Shown here piece after piece: positions 44,570 to 57,572 of a DNA stretch of 64,000 nt. The first letter of the stretch is position 1, and every line of letters starts with the position of its first letter. The DNA lies in the NCBI RefSeq assembly GCF_014252375.1, contig NZ_CP059221.1, positions 186,001 to 250,000 on the forward strand. The letters are read 5' to 3'. Position numbers and translations under genes: made by a program. The notes below the pieces were generated by a model, which worked only from the letters and a program-made list of their open reading frames with translations, was not told the DNA's origin and did no database searches. This DNA comes from Blattabacterium cuenoti (GTDB lineage Bacteria > Bacteroidota > Bacteroidia > Flavobacteriales > Blattabacteriaceae).

Positions 44570-45699
44570 TTATAATCTATTTTTTAAAAATGGAATAATA
44601 TTTTTTTTCCATACATCAAAATCATTATTCATGATATGAAATCTAGCCTTATTTAATAAATTTTTATAAAAAAATAAATTATGTGTAGAAGCTATTTCTT
44701 TACCTATATTTTCATTATTTAAAAATAAATGTCTTAAATAAGATTTACTATAAAATTTATCTACATAATGATTTCCAAATTTATCTATACAAGAATAATC
44801 ATATTTCCATTTTTTATTTTTAATATTAATAATTCCATTCCAAGTAAATAACATACCATGACGAGCATTTCTTGTAGGTATAACACAGTCGAACATATCT
44901 ATTCCAAGAGAAATATATTCTAATATATCTGATGGATTACCAACTCCCATTAAATATCTAGGTTTTTTATATGGTAATTTATCAGTTAATAAATTTATTA
45001 TATTATATGTTTCTTCTTTTTTTTCTCCTAAACTTAAACCACCTATAGCAAAACCTTCTGGTTCTATTTCAGAATTATATATTTCATCAACAAAATTTTC
45101 TCTTAATTTTGGATATATACTACCTTGTATTACAGGAAAAAATGTTTGTTTATTATTATATAATTCTGGATTTTTTTTTAAAAAAAAAAACATTTATTCA
45201 TCCATAACAATGTTCTTTTCATAGAAATTTTAGCAGTATTAAAATCACATGGAAAATCTGGACAATCATCAAATGACATTATAATATCTCCACCTATAAA
45301 ACGTTGAATTTTCATAGATTTTTCTGGAGAAAAAAAATGTATTGATCCATCTATAATAGATTTAAATATTACTCCTTCATCAGTTATTTTATTAAATTTT
45401 TTCATAGAAAAAATTTGATAACCACCACTGTCTGTTAGTATAGATTTTTTCCAATTCATAAAAGAATGTATTCCTCCAGATTTATATAAAATTTTTAATC
45501 CTGGATTAAAATATAAATGAAATGCATTTCCTAGAATAATATCAGACATATTATATAATTCTTTAACATTAACTGATTTAACATATCCTTTTGTAGCTAC
45601 AGGCATAAAAAATGGTGTATTAATTTCTCCATGATCTGTTTGTAATAAACCTACCCTTGCTTTAGATAATTTATTTTTTTTTACTAAAAAAAATTTCAT
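44570..45699 (-). pseudogene. tgt: Queuine tRNA-ribosyltransferase, frameshifted at a T11-A9 tract
   Basis: Tgt exchanges G34 for queuine or preQ1 in tRNAs. The N-terminal part (45699 to 45178, 173 codons) has ILTDSGGYQIFSM with the nucleophile-region Asp and FDDCP, ending MNKCFFF. The remainder (45193 to 44570) resumes FFFLKKNPELY and includes FPVIQGS, GIDMFDCVIPTRNARHG with the catalytic Asp, and STHNLFFY. The frames differ by one base at the tract T11 A9 (45172-45191). One extra T would restore the frame, so transcriptional slippage could rescue some product. The zinc Cys triad of E. coli is not visible. Confidence 0.88.
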
Positions 45700-45756: not shown

Positions 45757-46656
45757 ATGATTAGTAAAAAACAATACCATATACCAGTTTTATTAGAAGA
45801 AAGTATAAATAATCTTATTACAGATAAAAATGGAATTTATGTAGACGCTACTTATGGATTAGGAGGACATTCGTATTCAATTTTAAAAAAATTAGAAAAA
45901 AAATCTATATTAATAGCAATTGATCAAGATAAAGATTCTATAAAAAAAAATTTTATTATAGATAAACGTTTTTATCTATTTCACAATAATTTTATTAATA
46001 TAAAAGATATTTTAAATTTATTTTCTTTGAAAAAAATATCTGGGATGATAGTTGATCTTGGACTGTCTTCTTTTCAAATAGAAAATTTATCAAAAGGTTT
46101 TTCTATTAAAGAAAACTGTATATTAGATATGAGAATGAATCAAGAATCCAATAGTTTTAATGCAAAAAATGTTATTAATGAATATTCAGAGGAAAAATTA
46201 TGTTCTATTTTAAAAGAATATGGAGATTTTAAAAACGCGAAAAAAATTGTAAAAAAAATATTGGATAAACGTATAACTAAAGAAATTAACACCAGTTATG
46301 ATTTAAAAAATATTTTTCTAATAAAAGGATCTTTTAAAAAAAGAAAAAGATTTTTTTCAAGATTGTTTCAATCCATACGAATAGAGGTTAATAATGAAAT
46401 TTCTATGTTAAAAAAATTATTATATATTTCACATGAATTAATTTTATCAGGAGGTAGATTAGTTATAATTTCATATCATTCTATTGAAGATAGAATAGTA
46501 AAAAATTTTTTAAAAAAAGGTATTTTTTTAAGAAAAAAAATTAACTATAAACCATTTAAAATAATAAATAAAAAAGTAATAAAACCTACAGTTAATGAAT
46601 TAAAAAGTAATTCTAGATCTAGAAGTGCAAAATTAAGAGTTGCAGAAAGATTATGA
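45757..46656 (+). CDS. rsmH: 16S rRNA (cytosine1402-N4)-methyltransferase
   Basis: RsmH (MraW) methylates C1402 in the ribosomal P site. The 299-residue protein starts HIPVLLEESIN, with SAM motif DATYGLGGHSYSIL near residue 29, LGLSSFQIE near 102, IEVNNE near 208, ISYHSIEDRIVKNF near 235 and a C-terminal SRSRSAKLRVAERL. It heads the division and cell-wall cluster, as in most bacteria. mraZ is absent upstream. It overlaps ftsL by 4 nt. Confidence 0.95.
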   Translation: MISKKQYHIPVLLEESINNLITDKNGIYVDATYGLGGHSYSILKKLEKKSILIAIDQDKDSIKKNFIIDKRFYLFHNNFINIKDILNLFSLKKISGMIVDLGLSSFQIENLSKGFSIKENCILDMRMNQESNSFNAKNVINEYSEEKLCSILKEYGDFKNAKKIVKKILDKRITKEINTSYDLKNIFLIKGSFKKRKRFFSRLFQSIRIEVNNEISMLKKLLYISHELILSGGRLVIISYHSIEDRIVKNFLKKGIFLRKKINYKPFKIINKKVIKPTVNELKSNSRSRSAKLRVAERL

Positions 46657-46898
46657 TTTTTTTTATAAAAAAAACTGTAAAAAAATATATTTTATATATT
46701 TTAAAAGGTACATTCTTGGTTGAAAAAGATTCGTATCATATTTGGAATTTAATAATATTTTTTGTTATTATATCTTTAATTATTATTACTAGTTCACATA
46801 TAATGGATCATAATATAAAAATAATTTCAAAATTATATAAAGAAATTAAAAAATTAGAATTTTATGAAAAAAATAATTTATTAATTTGTTTCATATGA
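46653..46898 (+). CDS. ftsL: FtsL-like cell division protein, shortened at the C-terminus
   Basis: Position between rsmH and the ftsI remnant, and one membrane helix (about 32-52, NLIIFFVIISLIIITSSH), identify this as FtsL-like. The 81-residue product has a cytoplasmic segment, the helix, then only about 28 residues of the periplasmic coiled coil (KIISKLYKEIKKLEFYEKNN). Flavobacterial homologues run to about 105-110 residues by my recollection. The last residues LLICFI are hydrophobic and unlike a coiled coil. It overlaps its neighbours by 4 nt on each side. Confidence 0.7.
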   Translation: MIFFIKKTVKKYILYILKGTFLVEKDSYHIWNLIIFFVIISLIIITSSHIMDHNIKIISKLYKEIKKLEFYEKNNLLICFI

Positions 46899-47071
46899 AA
46901 GAAAGATATTTATTATTATATAAATCTTACTTAATTAGTTTATTATTTGTATTTATTTATATATTAATTATTTATAATATAATTAATATTCAAAATAATT
47001 CAGAAAAATATAAAAAACATGTTATAAAAAGAATAAATGATTTTAAATCATTTCGTTCTTCCTTAAAATAA
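46895..47071 (+). pseudogene. ftsI: FtsI (division transpeptidase, PBP3-type) reduced to its N-terminal anchor
   Basis: This 58-residue ORF lies where flavobacteria carry ftsI, between ftsL and murE. It contains a start like that of FtsI: MKERYLLLYKSYLISLLF, one membrane helix (about 14-34), then INIQNNSEKYKKH, equivalent to the VxIQ..x.KY segment at the base of the anchor. It then stops at TAA. The PBP dimerisation and transpeptidase domains (about 600 residues) are absent, and murE begins 7 nt later. No SxxK, SxN or KTG motif occurs here. Overlap with ftsL is ATGA. Confidence 0.72.
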
Positions 47072-47078
47072 TTATAAT

Positions 47079-48569
47079 ATGAAAAAAATATTAAAATCTG
47101 TTTTAAAAGGGGTAAATATATTAAAAATAATAGGTGATACTGAATATAGTTATGGTAAATTAATAAATGGAATATATATAAATTCTAAAAACGTAAAATA
47201 TAATACCATATTTGTTGCAAATAAAGGAATCAATACAAATGGTAACTTTTTCATAGAAGAAGCTATTTGTAATGGTGCTAATGTTATTATTTGTGAAAAA
47301 CCACCAGTTTTTATACATAAAAACATAACGTATATAATTGTTAATGATTCTACAGAAGCTTTAGGAATTATATCGTCTAATTACTATAATAATCCAACAA
47401 ATAAAATAAATTTAATAGGTATTACTGGAACAAATGGAAAAACTACTGTGGCAGTTATATTACATAAATTATTTTCTTTTTTAGGAGAAAAAAATGTACT
47501 TATATCTACTATAGGTATTAGAATATTGTCTAATGAATATTCTACTGAATATACAACTCCTAATATTATTGATATTAATAAATATTTATATTTATCAATT
47601 AAAAAAGGATGTAAATACGCATTTATGGAAGTAAGTTCACATGGAATTCATCAAAAAAGAATTTTTGGATTATTTTTTAAAGGTGCAGTTTTTACAAATA
47701 TAACTCATGATCATTTAGATTATCATAAATCATTTAATAATTATTTGTCAATAAAAAAAAATTTTTTTAATAAATTATCAAAAAAATCTTTTTCAATAAT
47801 TAATATTGATGATAAAAACTATTCAAAAATAATAAAAGACAGTATTAATAAAATTTATTTTTATGGAATTAAAAATAAAAATTCAGATTTTAAACTAAAA
47901 ATATTAAATAAATCTTTTGATGGAACTAAGATTATTATTGATAATAATAAAATAAATATTAATTTGATTGGTACATTCAATGCGTATAATATTTTAGCAA
48001 GTTATGCAACTTCAGTTTTATTAGGAATAGATAAAAAAATTATTTTAAAAAACTTAAGTTTATTAAATCCTATAGTTGGAAGATTTGATCAGTATATATC
48101 TAAATGTGGAAAACGTATAATAATTGATTATGCACATAATCCAAATGGATTGAAAAATATCATAGATTCTGTAAGAGAAATAATAAAAAATATTAATACT
48201 AATTTAATATGCGTAATAGGATGTGGAGGTAATAGAGATGTTACAAAACGATCTAAAATGGGGAAAATTATATATGAAAAATGTGATATATCTATTTTTA
48301 CATCAGATAATCCAAGAATAGAAAATCCATCAAATATAATAATGGATATGAAAAAACTTATTTCTAATAAACATAAAAAATCTTCTATTATTACTATTAT
48401 TAATAGAAAAAAAGCAATTAATAACGCAATTAAATTATCAAATAAAGGAGATATTATTTTAATAATGGGAAAAGGACATGAGAATTATCAAGAAATAAAA
48501 GGAATACGTTATCCATTTAATGATATGGATATTGTAAAAAATTTTTTTAGAAAGAAAAATGATTATTAA
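47079..48569 (+). CDS. murE: UDP-N-acetylmuramoyl-L-alanyl-D-glutamate--2,6-diaminopimelate ligase
   Basis: MurE adds the third stem-peptide residue. The 496-residue Mur ligase has the ATP loop GITGTNGKTTVAVIL near residue 112, EVSSHGIHQKRI near 180, the DHLDYH segment and VIDYAHNP near 345. SDNPRIENP near 410 is the DNPR motif typical of meso-DAP-adding enzymes. dapF at 41283-42074 supplies that substrate. Its end overlaps mraY by 11 nt. Confidence 0.95.
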   Translation: MKKILKSVLKGVNILKIIGDTEYSYGKLINGIYINSKNVKYNTIFVANKGINTNGNFFIEEAICNGANVIICEKPPVFIHKNITYIIVNDSTEALGIISSNYYNNPTNKINLIGITGTNGKTTVAVILHKLFSFLGEKNVLISTIGIRILSNEYSTEYTTPNIIDINKYLYLSIKKGCKYAFMEVSSHGIHQKRIFGLFFKGAVFTNITHDHLDYHKSFNNYLSIKKNFFNKLSKKSFSIINIDDKNYSKIIKDSINKIYFYGIKNKNSDFKLKILNKSFDGTKIIIDNNKININLIGTFNAYNILASYATSVLLGIDKKIILKNLSLLNPIVGRFDQYISKCGKRIIIDYAHNPNGLKNIIDSVREIIKNINTNLICVIGCGGNRDVTKRSKMGKIIYEKCDISIFTSDNPRIENPSNIIMDMKKLISNKHKKSSIITIINRKKAINNAIKLSNKGDIILIMGKGHENYQEIKGIRYPFNDMDIVKNFFRKKNDY

Positions 48570-49689: not shown

Positions 49690-51068
49690 AAAAATATACA
49701 ATAATATTAGGTGGTGGAGAAAGTGGAGTAGGAGCGGCTTTATTAGCTAAAAAAAATAATTTAAAAATATTTGTATCAGATTATGGAACCATAAATAATA
49801 AATATAGGAAGATATTAATAGATAATGATATTCCATTTGAAGAAAATGGACATTCAGAAAATTTTATTTTAAATAAATCTATTCAAATTATTAAAAGTCC
49901 TGGTATTTATAGAAATAATGATTTTATTAAAAAAATTTATTCAATGAATATACCAATATTGTCTGAATTAGATTTTGGTATGAAATATATAAAAAATTAT
50001 AATTACTTAATAAGTATTACTGGAAGTAATGGTAAAACTACAACTAGTTATACTATATATAATATTCTTAATAAGAATAAATTTAACGTAGGATTAGCTG
50101 GAAATATAGGATTTAGTTTTTCTAGAAGAATTATAGAGAAAAAAGATATTTACGTATTGGAAATTAGTAGCTTTCAATTAGATGATTCTTATAACTTCCA
50201 TACAAATATAGCGGTATTATTAAATATCACAAATGATCATTTAGACAGATATGAAAATAATATAGAAAGATATATTTCATCTAAATTTAGATTAATTAAC
50301 AATCAAACAATAAGAGATATTTTTATTTATAATTATGATGATCCTATGATTAGAATAGGATTAGATAAATTTAAAATACAATCTAATTGTATTCCTTTTT
50401 CTGCAAAAAAAAAATTAAAATTTGGATTTTACTTAGAAAATAATATTCTATTTTATAGAAAAAAGAATAAAATTAATAAGATATTTGATATTAATTTTAT
50501 ACATGGATTATATAATATATATAATATTATTTCTATAGTAATTATAGCAAAATTATTAAATATTAATAATAATATATTAAATTTAGTGTTGAAAAACGTT
50601 CCAACTTTAAAACATAGATTGGAAAAAATTAATTATATAATAAATGGAGTAAATTTTATTAACGATTCAAAAGCAACAAATGTTGATTCTGCACTTTTTG
50701 CATTAAAAAAAATAAAAAGTCCTATTATTTGGATAGTAGGAGGTAAAGATAAGGGTAATAATTATGAAAAATTAATACCTATAGTTAAAAAAAAGGTAAA
50801 AGCTATAATATGTTTAGGTTTAGATAATATTAAAATTATAAATGTATTTAAAAATTTTGTTAATATTATATTAGATACAAAAAGCATGAAAAAAGCTGTA
50901 TATATGTCTTATTATATATCTAAACCTGGGGACAATATATTATTATCTCCTTCTTGTTCTAGTTTTGATCTTTTTGATAATTATATAAAAAGAGGAAACG
51001 AATTTAAAAAAGAAGTTAAAAATCTTTTTTACAATAAAAAAAATGAAAGTAATAAATATTTTTATTAG
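49686..51068 (+). CDS. murD: UDP-N-acetylmuramoylalanine--D-glutamate ligase
   Basis: MurD adds D-glutamate. I take the ATG at 49686 (MKKYTIILGGGESG), which overlaps the mraY stop as ATGA; an earlier in-frame start at 49623 is inside mraY. The 460-residue protein has the GGGESGVGAALLA Rossmann motif near residue 9, SITGSNGKTTTSYTI near 110, NDHLDRYEN near 178, LKHRLEKI near 300 and NDSKATN near 320. It overlaps ftsW by 26 nt. Confidence 0.94.
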   Translation: MKKYTIILGGGESGVGAALLAKKNNLKIFVSDYGTINNKYRKILIDNDIPFEENGHSENFILNKSIQIIKSPGIYRNNDFIKKIYSMNIPILSELDFGMKYIKNYNYLISITGSNGKTTTSYTIYNILNKNKFNVGLAGNIGFSFSRRIIEKKDIYVLEISSFQLDDSYNFHTNIAVLLNITNDHLDRYENNIERYISSKFRLINNQTIRDIFIYNYDDPMIRIGLDKFKIQSNCIPFSAKKKLKFGFYLENNILFYRKKNKINKIFDINFIHGLYNIYNIISIVIIAKLLNINNNILNLVLKNVPTLKHRLEKINYIINGVNFINDSKATNVDSALFALKKIKSPIIWIVGGKDKGNNYEKLIPIVKKKVKAIICLGLDNIKIINVFKNFVNIILDTKSMKKAVYMSYYISKPGDNILLSPSCSSFDLFDNYIKRGNEFKKEVKNLFYNKKNESNKYFY

Positions 51069-52197
51069 TAATTATTTAAAAGGAGACAAATATTTGTGGG
51101 CTTTCATCTCTTTATTAACTATATTTTCTTTTTTACCAGTTTATTCTGCAAGTAGTGGTTGGGCTATAAGGCATTATAATGGAGCTTTTACAATATTTTA
51201 TTGTCTATTAAAACATATACTATTCCTATTAGTAGGATATTGTATTATTTTTTTTACACAATTTATTAGTTATAAATACTTTTATAAAATATCTATATTA
51301 TTAATTTTTATATCATTTATTTTACTAGTTATAACAGTTCTTCAGGATAATAAATTAAATGGTGTTAATGCATCTAGATGGTTACATATACCAATTATTA
51401 GTATATCATTTCAAACTTCTAGTATAGGAAGTTTATCAGTATTTATTTATACTGCTAGATATTTGTCTAAATATAAAAAAATAAAATTTAATTTTATAAA
51501 TTTTTTTATAAAATTTTTATTTCCAGTATTTATAATAACTGGATTAATATTTCCTTCTAATGGATCTACTGCAGTTATTATTTTTATTTCTATTTTAATT
51601 ATAATTTTTATAAGTGGCCCTCCAATTTTAAATTTTATTACATTTTTTTTATTAGGAATATTTTTATCTACTACGTATATTTTTTTTGTTACAAAATATT
51701 TTAATAAAAACTCTGAAAATAGAGTACTTACTTGGAAAAATAGAATAGAAAAATTTTTAAAAAATGAAGATAGTTATCAAATGATACAATCTAAAACTGC
51801 AATTATTATTGGAAATAAATTTGGCCTAGGACCTGGAAAAAGTATAGTTAAAAATTTTCTTCCACTTTCTTATTCAGATTTTATATATGCTATAATTATA
51901 GAAGAATATGGATTATTTGGTGGAATAATTCTATTATTTATATACTTACTTATATTATTTAGAATTATTGTAATAGCAACTAAAGTACAAAATTATTTTT
52001 GTACACTATTAGTATTTTCTATTGGATTTCCTATTATTATACAATCACTTATTAACATGGGAATTACAGTAGGAATTTTTCCTATAACTGGACAAACGTT
52101 GCCGTTAATTAGTGCAGGAGGTTCTTCTATATGGATTACATTTTTTAGTTTTGGTATTATATTAAGCGTTAGTAAAACTATATATGAAAAATCTTAA
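51043..52197 (+). CDS. ftsW: SEDS-family peptidoglycan glycosyltransferase FtsW
   Basis: FtsW polymerises septal glycan and needs its partner transpeptidase FtsI for activity. The 384-residue membrane protein has about ten helices. The SEDS signature is present: LGPGKSIVKNFLPLSYSDFIYAII near 265-290 with the conserved Asp and EEYGLFGG. It ends ISAGGSSIW near 360. Its retention without an intact ftsI in the cluster is noteworthy. It overlaps murG by 14 nt. Confidence 0.93.
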   Translation: MKVINIFISNYLKGDKYLWAFISLLTIFSFLPVYSASSGWAIRHYNGAFTIFYCLLKHILFLLVGYCIIFFTQFISYKYFYKISILLIFISFILLVITVLQDNKLNGVNASRWLHIPIISISFQTSSIGSLSVFIYTARYLSKYKKIKFNFINFFIKFLFPVFIITGLIFPSNGSTAVIIFISILIIIFISGPPILNFITFFLLGIFLSTTYIFFVTKYFNKNSENRVLTWKNRIEKFLKNEDSYQMIQSKTAIIIGNKFGLGPGKSIVKNFLPLSYSDFIYAIIIEEYGLFGGIILLFIYLLILFRIIVIATKVQNYFCTLLVFSIGFPIIIQSLINMGITVGIFPITGQTLPLISAGGSSIWITFFSFGIILSVSKTIYEKS

Positions 52198-54699: not shown

Positions 54700-54824
54700 T
54701 TATTTGTATTTATTATTAATTATTTGATATAAATATATTTTTCATATAATGTATAAATGATTTAATAAAATTATTTAATTTTATTTAAAATTTTTTAATG
54801 TTAGTAAAAAAATAATATAATTTT
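54700..54824. other. Gap in the position of ftsQ
   Basis: This 125-nt AT-only-looking stretch between murC and ftsA holds no ORF of note. It contains two copies of attaattatttg about 20 nt apart (near 54695 and 54715). ftsQ occupies this slot in related flavobacteria by established gene order, so this is probably the deletion scar. An ftsA promoter may lie here but I see no consensus TAnnTTTG. Confidence 0.6.
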
Positions 54825-56192
54825 ATGGAATATCAAGATATAGCTATAGGTCTGGATGTAGGTACTACAAAGATTGTAGCTATGGTCGGAAGAAGAAATG
54901 AGTATAATAAAATTGAAATTTTAGGTATAGGAAGATCTAAAAGTATTGGAGTACATAGAGGTGTTGTAAATAATATAACTCAAACTATTGACGCTATTAG
55001 AGAAGCTGTTTCTGAAGCAGAACATAGTTCTGGATTGAAAATAAAAGAAGTTATTGTAGGTATAGCTGGACAGCATATTAGAAGTTTACAACACAATGAT
55101 TATATTACAAGATTAGATTTTGAAAATGTTATTAATCAAGAAGATATACAACAATTGATAGATCAAGTTCATAAATTAGTAATGTTACCAGGAGAAGAAA
55201 TTATTCATGTTCTTCCACAAGAATATAAAGTAGATAGTCAATCAGAAATAGGAGAACCTATTGGAATGTATGGAAGTCGTTTAGAAGCAAATTTTCATGT
55301 AGTTGTTGGACAAATATCTTCAATTAGAAATATTGGAAGATGTGTTAAAGCTGCTGGATTAAATTTATCTGGAATGACTTTAGAACCTATAGCTTCTGCA
55401 GAAGCAGTTTTAAGCAAAGAAGAAAGAGAAGCTGGAGTAGCTTTAGTTGATATAGGAGGTGGAACTACAGACATAGCTATATTTAAAGATAATATTATTC
55501 GACATACAGCTGTTATTCCTTTCGGAGGAAACGTAATTACTGAAAATATAAAAACAGATTGTTTAATTATTGAAAGACAAGCAGAATTATTAAAAATAAA
55601 ATTTGGTTCAGCTTGGCCAGGTGAAAATAAAGAAACTGAAATTGTTTGTATACCAGGATTAAGAGGTAGAGATCCAAAAGAAATTTCTTTAAAACATCTT
55701 TCTAAAATTATTCATACAAGAGTTTGTGAAATTTTGGAACATGTTAATATAGAAATTAATAATTATGGTAATGAAGAACAAAAAAAGAGATTAATTGCCG
55801 GATTAGTAATGACAGGTGGAGGATCTCAATTAAAACATATAAGACCTTTAACTGAGTATATTACTGGAATGGATGTTCGTGTTGGATATTCTAATGAACA
55901 TATAGCAGGAGGAGATAATGGATTTATAAGTAATCCTGAATATGCAACATCAATAGGATTAGTTGTTAAAGGTTTGGATGATAAGAAAAAATATTTATGT
56001 ACATCAGATATATTATATAATCTAGATTATAAAAAAAATTCAGAATTATTTTCTACAAAATTTTATAATAAAAAGAAATCACATGGATATAAAGAAAAAT
56101 TTAATAGTTCTATAAAAAAAAATAAAAAATCCAAATCTTTTTTAGAAATTTGGGCAGATAAATTCCGTCAAATATTGAATGACACAGAATAA
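54825..56192 (+). CDS. ftsA: Cell division protein FtsA
   Basis: FtsA is an actin-like ATPase that anchors FtsZ to the membrane. The 455-residue protein has the phosphate-1 motif IGLDVGTTKIVAMVG near residue 8, the 1C subdomain around VIVGIAGQHI, phosphate-2 ALVDIGGGTTDIAIF near 205 and the adenosine motif LVMTGGGSQL near 325. The C-terminal helix reads SFLEIWADKFRQIL, an amphipathic membrane-binding type. It lies 6 nt before ftsZ. Confidence 0.95.
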   Translation: MEYQDIAIGLDVGTTKIVAMVGRRNEYNKIEILGIGRSKSIGVHRGVVNNITQTIDAIREAVSEAEHSSGLKIKEVIVGIAGQHIRSLQHNDYITRLDFENVINQEDIQQLIDQVHKLVMLPGEEIIHVLPQEYKVDSQSEIGEPIGMYGSRLEANFHVVVGQISSIRNIGRCVKAAGLNLSGMTLEPIASAEAVLSKEEREAGVALVDIGGGTTDIAIFKDNIIRHTAVIPFGGNVITENIKTDCLIIERQAELLKIKFGSAWPGENKETEIVCIPGLRGRDPKEISLKHLSKIIHTRVCEILEHVNIEINNYGNEEQKKRLIAGLVMTGGGSQLKHIRPLTEYITGMDVRVGYSNEHIAGGDNGFISNPEYATSIGLVVKGLDDKKKYLCTSDILYNLDYKKNSELFSTKFYNKKKSHGYKEKFNSSIKKNKKSKSFLEIWADKFRQILNDTE

Positions 56193-56198
56193 AAAATA

Positions 56199-57572
56199 AT
56201 GAAAAAAGAAGATTTAAAAATACAAAAAAAAGAAAAAATTAAATTATCAAATAATCGTACTGCATCAATTAAGGTAATAGGAGTAGGAGGTGGAGGAAGT
56301 AATGCATTGAGTTATATGTTTGAACAAGGAATTAATGGTGTAGATTTTATTGCATGTAATACAGATGCTCAAGCTTTAAACAATAATCCAGTTCCTACTA
56401 AAATACAACTAGGTGCATCTATAACTGAAGGTCTTGGTGCAGGAGCAGATCCAGAAGTAGGAGAAAAAGCAGCATTAGAAAGCTTAGAAGAAATAAAAAG
56501 TGTATTGGATTCAAATACAAAAATGACATTTATTACTGCAGGAATGGGGGGTGGAACAGGAACTGGTGCTGCACCTGTAATTGCAGGTATTTCTAAAGAA
56601 AAAGGAATCCTTACTGTAGGAATAGTTACTATACCATTTCATTTTGAAGGAAAAATGAGATTAAAACAAGCTCAAAAAGGAATAGAGTCTCTAAGAAAAA
56701 ATGTAGATTCATTAATTGTTATTAATAACGATAAACTAAGAGAATTATATGGTAATTTAGGATTTAAGGCAGGCTTTGCAAAAGCAGATGAAGTTTTAAC
56801 TACTGCAGCTAAAGGTATTGCAGAAGTTATTACTCATCATTATAAACAAAATATAGATTTGAGAGATACTAGAACAGTATTAAAAGAAAGCGGAACTGCT
56901 GTTATGGGGTCTTCTGTTTCTGTAGGAGAAAATAGAGCTAAAGAAGCAGTTATTCAAGCATTAGATTCTCCATTATTGAATGATAATAAAATAACTGGAG
57001 CTAAAAATGTTCTTCTATTAATTGTCTCTGGTAGGATTGAAATTACTATAGATGAGATTGGAATTATTAGCGATTATATCCAGTCAGAAGCAGGAAATAA
57101 TGCAAATATTATAATGGGAATAGGTGAAGATGATAAATTAGAAGAAAGTATTTCTGTAACAATAGTAGCAACTGGCTTTCCAACAGAAATACAACGTGCT
57201 ATTAATCATGAAGAAAAAAAAATATTTCATAGATTAGAAGAACCATATGATAAAAAATTACCTAATAAAGATGAAATACATTTATTGCAAAAAAATCCTT
57301 TTTTTTCAATAAAAAAAAAATTTTCAAAAAACTTAGATAATTTAAATGAATTAAATAATGATAAAAATAAAATTTCATTAAATAAAAATATTTTTGATGA
57401 ATCAATAAATTTAAAATCTAATTCTTTTAATATAAGTAGTAAAAATAAAAAACAAAATTTTCATTATTTAGAAGATAATTTTGATTATCCTATATCTTCA
57501 TATGAAGAAGAAAAAAAAAATAGAATTTTAAATGTAAATATTATAAAAAAAGAAGAAAATAAAAATGATTAA
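56199..57572 (+). CDS. ftsZ: Cell division protein FtsZ
   Basis: FtsZ is the tubulin-like GTPase of the division ring. The 457-residue protein has VGVGGGGSNALSYM near residue 28, the NTDAQAL loop, the tubulin signature GGGTGTGAAPVIA near 107 and the T7 loop GFKAGFAKADEV near 195. The linker after about 325 is long, Lys/Asn-rich and ends NIIKKEENKND. I do not see a clear D-I-P-x-F-L type C-terminal peptide that would bind FtsA. Confidence 0.95.
   Translation: MKKEDLKIQKKEKIKLSNNRTASIKVIGVGGGGSNALSYMFEQGINGVDFIACNTDAQALNNNPVPTKIQLGASITEGLGAGADPEVGEKAALESLEEIKSVLDSNTKMTFITAGMGGGTGTGAAPVIAGISKEKGILTVGIVTIPFHFEGKMRLKQAQKGIESLRKNVDSLIVINNDKLRELYGNLGFKAGFAKADEVLTTAAKGIAEVITHHYKQNIDLRDTRTVLKESGTAVMGSSVSVGENRAKEAVIQALDSPLLNDNKITGAKNVLLLIVSGRIEITIDEIGIISDYIQSEAGNNANIIMGIGEDDKLEESISVTIVATGFPTEIQRAINHEEKKIFHRLEEPYDKKLPNKDEIHLLQKNPFFSIKKKFSKNLDNLNELNNDKNKISLNKNIFDESINLKSNSFNISSKNKKQNFHYLEDNFDYPISSYEEEKKNRILNVNIIKKEENKND

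Follow-up and report, generated by a model that had tools for sequence, protein, structure and literature searches.

FtsI is essential in Escherichia coli. Blattabacterium is a genus of bacteria housed within the cells of cockroaches. In the stretch of its DNA analysed here (64,000 nucleotides, hereafter the window), an open reading frame at 46895-47071 (+), flanked by ftsL and murE, encodes a 58-amino-acid FtsI membrane anchor without a transpeptidase domain. This arrangement raises the question of whether the short frame is a chance ORF, a remnant on its way to deletion or a gene in its own right, and, if it is a gene, what an anchor deprived of its enzyme could do. The window belongs to a Blattabacterium genome of 574 kb, which is accompanied by a second contig of 3.3 kb that matches Blattabacterium plasmids.

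A truncated ftsI between ftsL and murE

The stub begins at an ATG (46895) that is shared with the ftsL stop codon as an ATGA overlap, and its end is separated by 7 bp from the start of murE at 47079. It is preceded by mraW/rsmH (45757-46656, +), which marks the upstream boundary of the locus, and by a short, 81-amino-acid form of ftsL (46653-46898, +; PF19579). The adjoining downstream gene, murE (47079-48569, +), served as the anchor for aligning the locus across genomes. On the basis of an AlphaFold model and the sequence itself, the stub protein is predicted to consist of a short cytoplasmic N-terminus, one transmembrane helix (residues ~13-30; 46931-46984, +) and a short periplasmic helix. 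The model (mean pLDDT 84.8) contains a long helix through the membrane (residues 2-34) and a shorter one (36-57). The segment IQNNSEKYKK (46988-47017, +) of the stub also occurs where the periplasmic portion of full-length FtsI begins.

We built a profile from the FtsI N-termini of 42 Blattabacterium relatives and searched it against 1577 six-frame ORFs from the window and five loci. The window stub is matched with E = 1.5e-19 and the best unrelated ORF with E = 0.15, which rules out chance similarity and establishes the presence of an FtsI-type N-terminal transmembrane anchor and juxtamembrane segment. Four further genomes carry the same anchor ORF at the same place (E = 7.5e-23 to 1.9e-09), such that a chance ORF can be dismissed; assembly error is likewise unlikely, given the identical structure in five genomes. 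In a BLASTP comparison, the window stub and the N-terminal end of the full-length FtsI of AMAZOsp (G020) share 67% identity over 45 amino acids. The stub also occupies the expected position in the mra/dcw cluster, between ftsL and murE, or between mraW and murE in the two genomes (G025 and G028) that have no ftsL.

The stub stops just short of KRGNIY, a conserved segment with which the pedestal of relatives begins. No SxxK/SxN/KTG sequence follows it, and Pfam finds no transpeptidase domain (PF00905) at the locus. The pedestal, or PBP dimerisation domain (PF03717), is matched by a full-length FtsI relative, whereas none of the five stubs gives a Pfam match to FtsI domains; Pfam and NCBIfam searches of the stubs return weak, irrelevant matches only. 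Thus, the initial annotation of this DNA, which had described an FtsI-like anchor ORF of 58 residues with no transpeptidase motif after it, was correct on both counts. The stub is a direct descendant of FtsI and, with transpeptidase and pedestal both missing, is by the features tested no longer a class B PBP.

A whole-genome search with PF00905 yields two matches, PBP2/MrdA, encoded beside rodA and mreD, and the class A enzyme PBP1A. A hidden full-length FtsI elsewhere in the genome is thereby ruled out, in agreement with the earlier suggestion that the septal transpeptidase has been lost. A full-length class B PBP with an FtsI-type N-terminus at another site, the finding that had been expected to overturn that suggestion, does not occur. 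The one class B PBP that is left is PBP2 rather than a relocated FtsI: it lies beside rodA and mreD, and it co-occurs with full FtsI in relatives, being present at the rodA locus in 10/10 genomes inspected, both with and without FtsI. Its catalytic motifs are intact.

Distribution of the anchor and selection on its sequence

We compared the mraW-murE interval in 49 Blattabacterium genomes, among which the window genome is labelled G000. An ftsI of about 600-680 amino acids occupies this interval in 43 of them, including one in which the gene is frameshifted (L054 in G027, 175 + 490 amino acids; perhaps poly-A slippage or a sequencing error). The FtsI transpeptidase domain is missing in the other six. 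Five carry a single anchor ORF, of 58 (G000), 60 (G009), 60 (G016), 71 (G025, or EUPHYsp) and 68 (G028) amino acids, and the gap between stub and murE ranges among them from 7 to about 70 bp. The sixth, the Chorisoneura symbiont CHORISOsp (G019), has a 350-amino-acid ORF (L025:1956-3005) that aligns to FtsI residues 16-285 and retains the pedestal that the stubs lack; its stop precedes the SxxK region. Every relative that has lost the transpeptidase therefore keeps the anchor, and the anchorless relatives that might have marked the ORF as dispensable were not encountered. As a separate observation, three genomes with full FtsI (G001, G004 and G014) have a murE that is broken by frameshifts or stop codons.

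In a tree of seven proteins, one run of which used the C20 mixture model, the five short-stub genomes form one deep clade (UFBoot 100; SH-aLRT 99 under C20), and G019 groups at support 100 with G063, which has a full FtsI. On this tree there were at least two losses of the transpeptidase, each of which spared the anchor. For the five-genome clade, the simplest reading of the sequences would be one ancestral truncation at its base, with separate truncations at almost one point also conceivable.

Codon models give ω values of 0.03-0.11 for the five stubs (2ΔlnL 35-48 against ω = 1) and of 0.02-0.12 for four (2ΔlnL 25-36), values to be read with the saturation of synonymous sites in mind and with the possibility that part of the divergence, including that on deep-lineage branches, predates truncation. 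A cleaner test is provided by the sister pair G000-G009, for which all divergence postdates truncation on the tree. The two stubs share 78% amino-acid identity and evolve with an ω of 0.18 (2ΔlnL 7.96); for comparison, ω in the same pair is 0.16 for murE and 0.05 for ftsW. The conserved stub residues are those held in common with full-length FtsI.

These data bear on two readings in which the protein itself does not matter. The stub could be a decaying remnant awaiting deletion, as might be expected from the fast gene loss in this lineage, from the G025 stub, which has decayed downstream of its transmembrane helix, and from frameshifts in some other genes. However, neutral simulations at the dS of 0.71 observed for six neighbouring genes leave both the G000 and G009 frames open in 0/2000 runs, even without indels, and the stub has been retained in 5/5 clade genomes while about 1.8 kb of adjoining ftsI sequence and most ftsQ copies were erased. 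We therefore consider a remnant in transit very improbable. Equally hard to credit is a translational leader whose only task would be to pass ribosomes from ftsL to murE, whatever its protein sequence. The ATGA overlap and the 7-bp gap in the window fit such a leader, and ftsI and murE frequently overlap in full-length relatives; against it stand the protein-level selection in the sister pair, the variable distance to murE and the disappearance of ftsL from two genomes. The stub is under protein-level purifying selection and behaves as a gene, which bears out the earlier proposal that it has been kept and not merely left over.

Decay of the division proteins around the stub

Within the window, ftsW (51043-52197, +) is intact, as had been noted earlier, and retains ten of ten checked E. 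coli activity residues; ftsA and ftsZ (54825-57572, +) are both intact as well. The murC-ftsA spacer (54700-54824, +) is the site of ftsQ in relatives, and ftsQ is missing from the window genome. It is also missing in G009 and G025, cut in G016 and G019, and 235 amino acids long in G028. FtsL is short in G000, G009 and G016, compared with about 103-131 amino acids in most relatives with full FtsI. Genome-wide searches of G025 and G028 found no ftsL, which rules out its relocation.

All stub genomes still encode FtsW, even where ftsL is absent genome-wide and the activity residues are gone. The FtsW family score declines from 217 bits (G000) through 163 (G019) and 109 (G028) to 54 (G025), while the score of the best RodA segment stays steady near 150-163. 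We mapped by motif alignment ten E. coli FtsW residues whose substitution blocks septal synthesis (PMC8765783). None of the ten varies among 42 Blattabacterium that have ftsI, and G000, G009 and G016 keep them all. The FtsW of G028 has lost the equivalents of A135, W138, G199, R243, G380 and G381, and that of G025 keeps D297 alone. Nonetheless, the FtsW frames remain open over about 390 codons in both G028 (L027:7446-8609) and G025 (L026:7361-8530). An AlphaFold model of the G025 protein has mostly confident transmembrane helices, active-site loops with pLDDT under 50, and RodA and FtsW as its best PDB matches. These two proteins are thus candidates for catalytically dead FtsW in which the SEDS fold is kept. 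In another genome, G021, ftsW (L072) appears frameshifted, with a 245-amino-acid ORF, perhaps through poly-A slippage or sequencing error.

TM8 of FtsW, a candidate docking helix, shows preferential conservation in G028 (15/15 columns; uncorrected p = 0.003) and none in G025 (9/15 columns), so co-conservation of the putative FtsW-stub interface is not consistent between the two genomes, and preferential conservation of TM8/TM9 was dropped as a general signal.

A probable role for the anchor without the enzyme

The retention of the anchor suggests that it has a job by itself, most likely that of holding its partner FtsW. In E. coli, FtsW is described as recruiting FtsI through the FtsI transmembrane helix and flanking residues (PMC8078798, citing Wissel 2005), a part of the protein that is enough for recruitment in that species, and in the Pseudomonas complex deletion of the FtsI transmembrane helix abolishes FtsW pull-down (PMC10764723). 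Mutations of the E. coli FtsW activity residues abolish activity, and comparable point mutants retain localisation and FtsI binding (PMC8765783). We consider it probable that the stub is a functional relic of FtsI, an FtsW-docking unit made up of the transmembrane anchor and the juxtamembrane segment, which was kept after loss of the ectodomain at the base of the clade. The pedestal and transpeptidase domains would have been lost once, and the stub, presumably expressed, would bind FtsW through its helix and act non-catalytically, either by stabilising FtsW or by keeping it in the divisome. Cross-linking would then be supplied by PBP1A and by RodA-PBP2. A structural divisome unit of stub and FtsW should work without transpeptidation and probably, in the case of G025 and G028, without glycan polymerisation as well. 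Because FtsW still looks active in the window genome, the stub there may additionally support FtsW polymerase activity.

A stronger version of this proposal is that the FtsW-FtsI pair now serves only as a structural unit in the membrane, in which an FtsI helix of 58-71 amino acids sits on an FtsW that is catalytically dead in two lineages. We put it forward tentatively, as a possibility somewhat short of an even prospect.

The initial annotation had offered a different role as the second of its two options; in this reading, activation of the FtsW polymerase is the specific reason for keeping the stub, and PBP1A or PBP2 performs cross-linking. SEDS polymerases do require a cognate bPBP partner (PMC8078798), PBP1A is present, PBP2 has intact motifs and the FtsW proteins of G000, G009 and G016 keep all ten activity residues checked. 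As a general function, however, activation does not hold up: the stub persists in two of the five genomes, G028 and G025, although their FtsW proteins have lost the W138, G199, R243, G380 and G381 equivalents, and the pedestal, whose contact with ECL4 of FtsW is important for activation (PMC8765783), is gone. This explanation therefore appears unlikely. Persistence of the anchor without ftsL, and beside an FtsW stripped of activity residues, would also be compatible with co-option to an unrelated function in the membrane, for instance the binding of RodA, of PBP1A or of partners of FtsA/FtsZ. Co-option sits poorly with the identity of the conserved residues, which are those of full-length FtsI, and with the presence of FtsW in every case, and we regard it as quite improbable.

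The non-catalytic reading, in which the anchor holds FtsW, has partial parallels in other systems. The stub shares with the full-length FtsI/PBP3 of Blattabacterium and E. coli its locus, its anchor sequence and a single N-terminal transmembrane helix, but it lacks the pedestal, transpeptidase and PASTA domains and measures 58-71 instead of about 600-680 amino acids. It resembles the isolated FtsI transmembrane construct of E. coli that is attributed to Wissel et al. (2005), a transmembrane helix with flanks whose recruitment was credited to FtsW contact; unlike that artificial construct, the Blattabacterium anchor is the natural remainder of a gene and is maintained by selection. In Bacillus subtilis, a PBP 2B that has no catalytic activity can still assemble the division complex, and another PBP gives the activity (PMC5656894). 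The septal class B PBP thus has a structural role apart from catalysis there, as it may have in Blattabacterium, but that PBP 2B is a full-length point mutant, whereas the extracellular domains of the stub are gone. Most Wolbachia of supergroups B/C/D lack FtsL, FtsB, FtsI and FtsW and retain RodA-PBP2 (PMC10591338). They too are obligate intracellular symbionts that divide without the FtsI transpeptidase; in Wolbachia, however, FtsW and FtsI were lost together, whereas Blattabacterium keeps FtsW and the FtsI anchor. A search of the open literature, outside which key comparative papers on Blattabacterium may lie, found neither Blattabacterium and ftsI treated together nor any description of such a stub.

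The separate role of the non-enzymatic part of FtsI has previously been approached chiefly through laboratory mutants. Here evolution has performed a natural experiment, taking the enzyme away while the anchor persisted across deep divergence. Should the stub bind FtsW, contact through the helix would be the last indispensable part of the FtsW-FtsI pair, and if the structural-unit reading is true, the role of the pair in division would be separable from wall synthesis or cross-linking. The clade also offers a graded series (FtsQ, FtsL, the FtsI ectodomain and then the FtsW active site) in which the dismantling of a divisome can be studied.

Elsewhere in the window, a tgt-like gene (queuine tRNA-ribosyltransferase) at 44570-45699 (-) is split into two ORFs, 45178-45699 and 44570-45193, which overlap and lie in different frames, and so is frameshifted or decayed.
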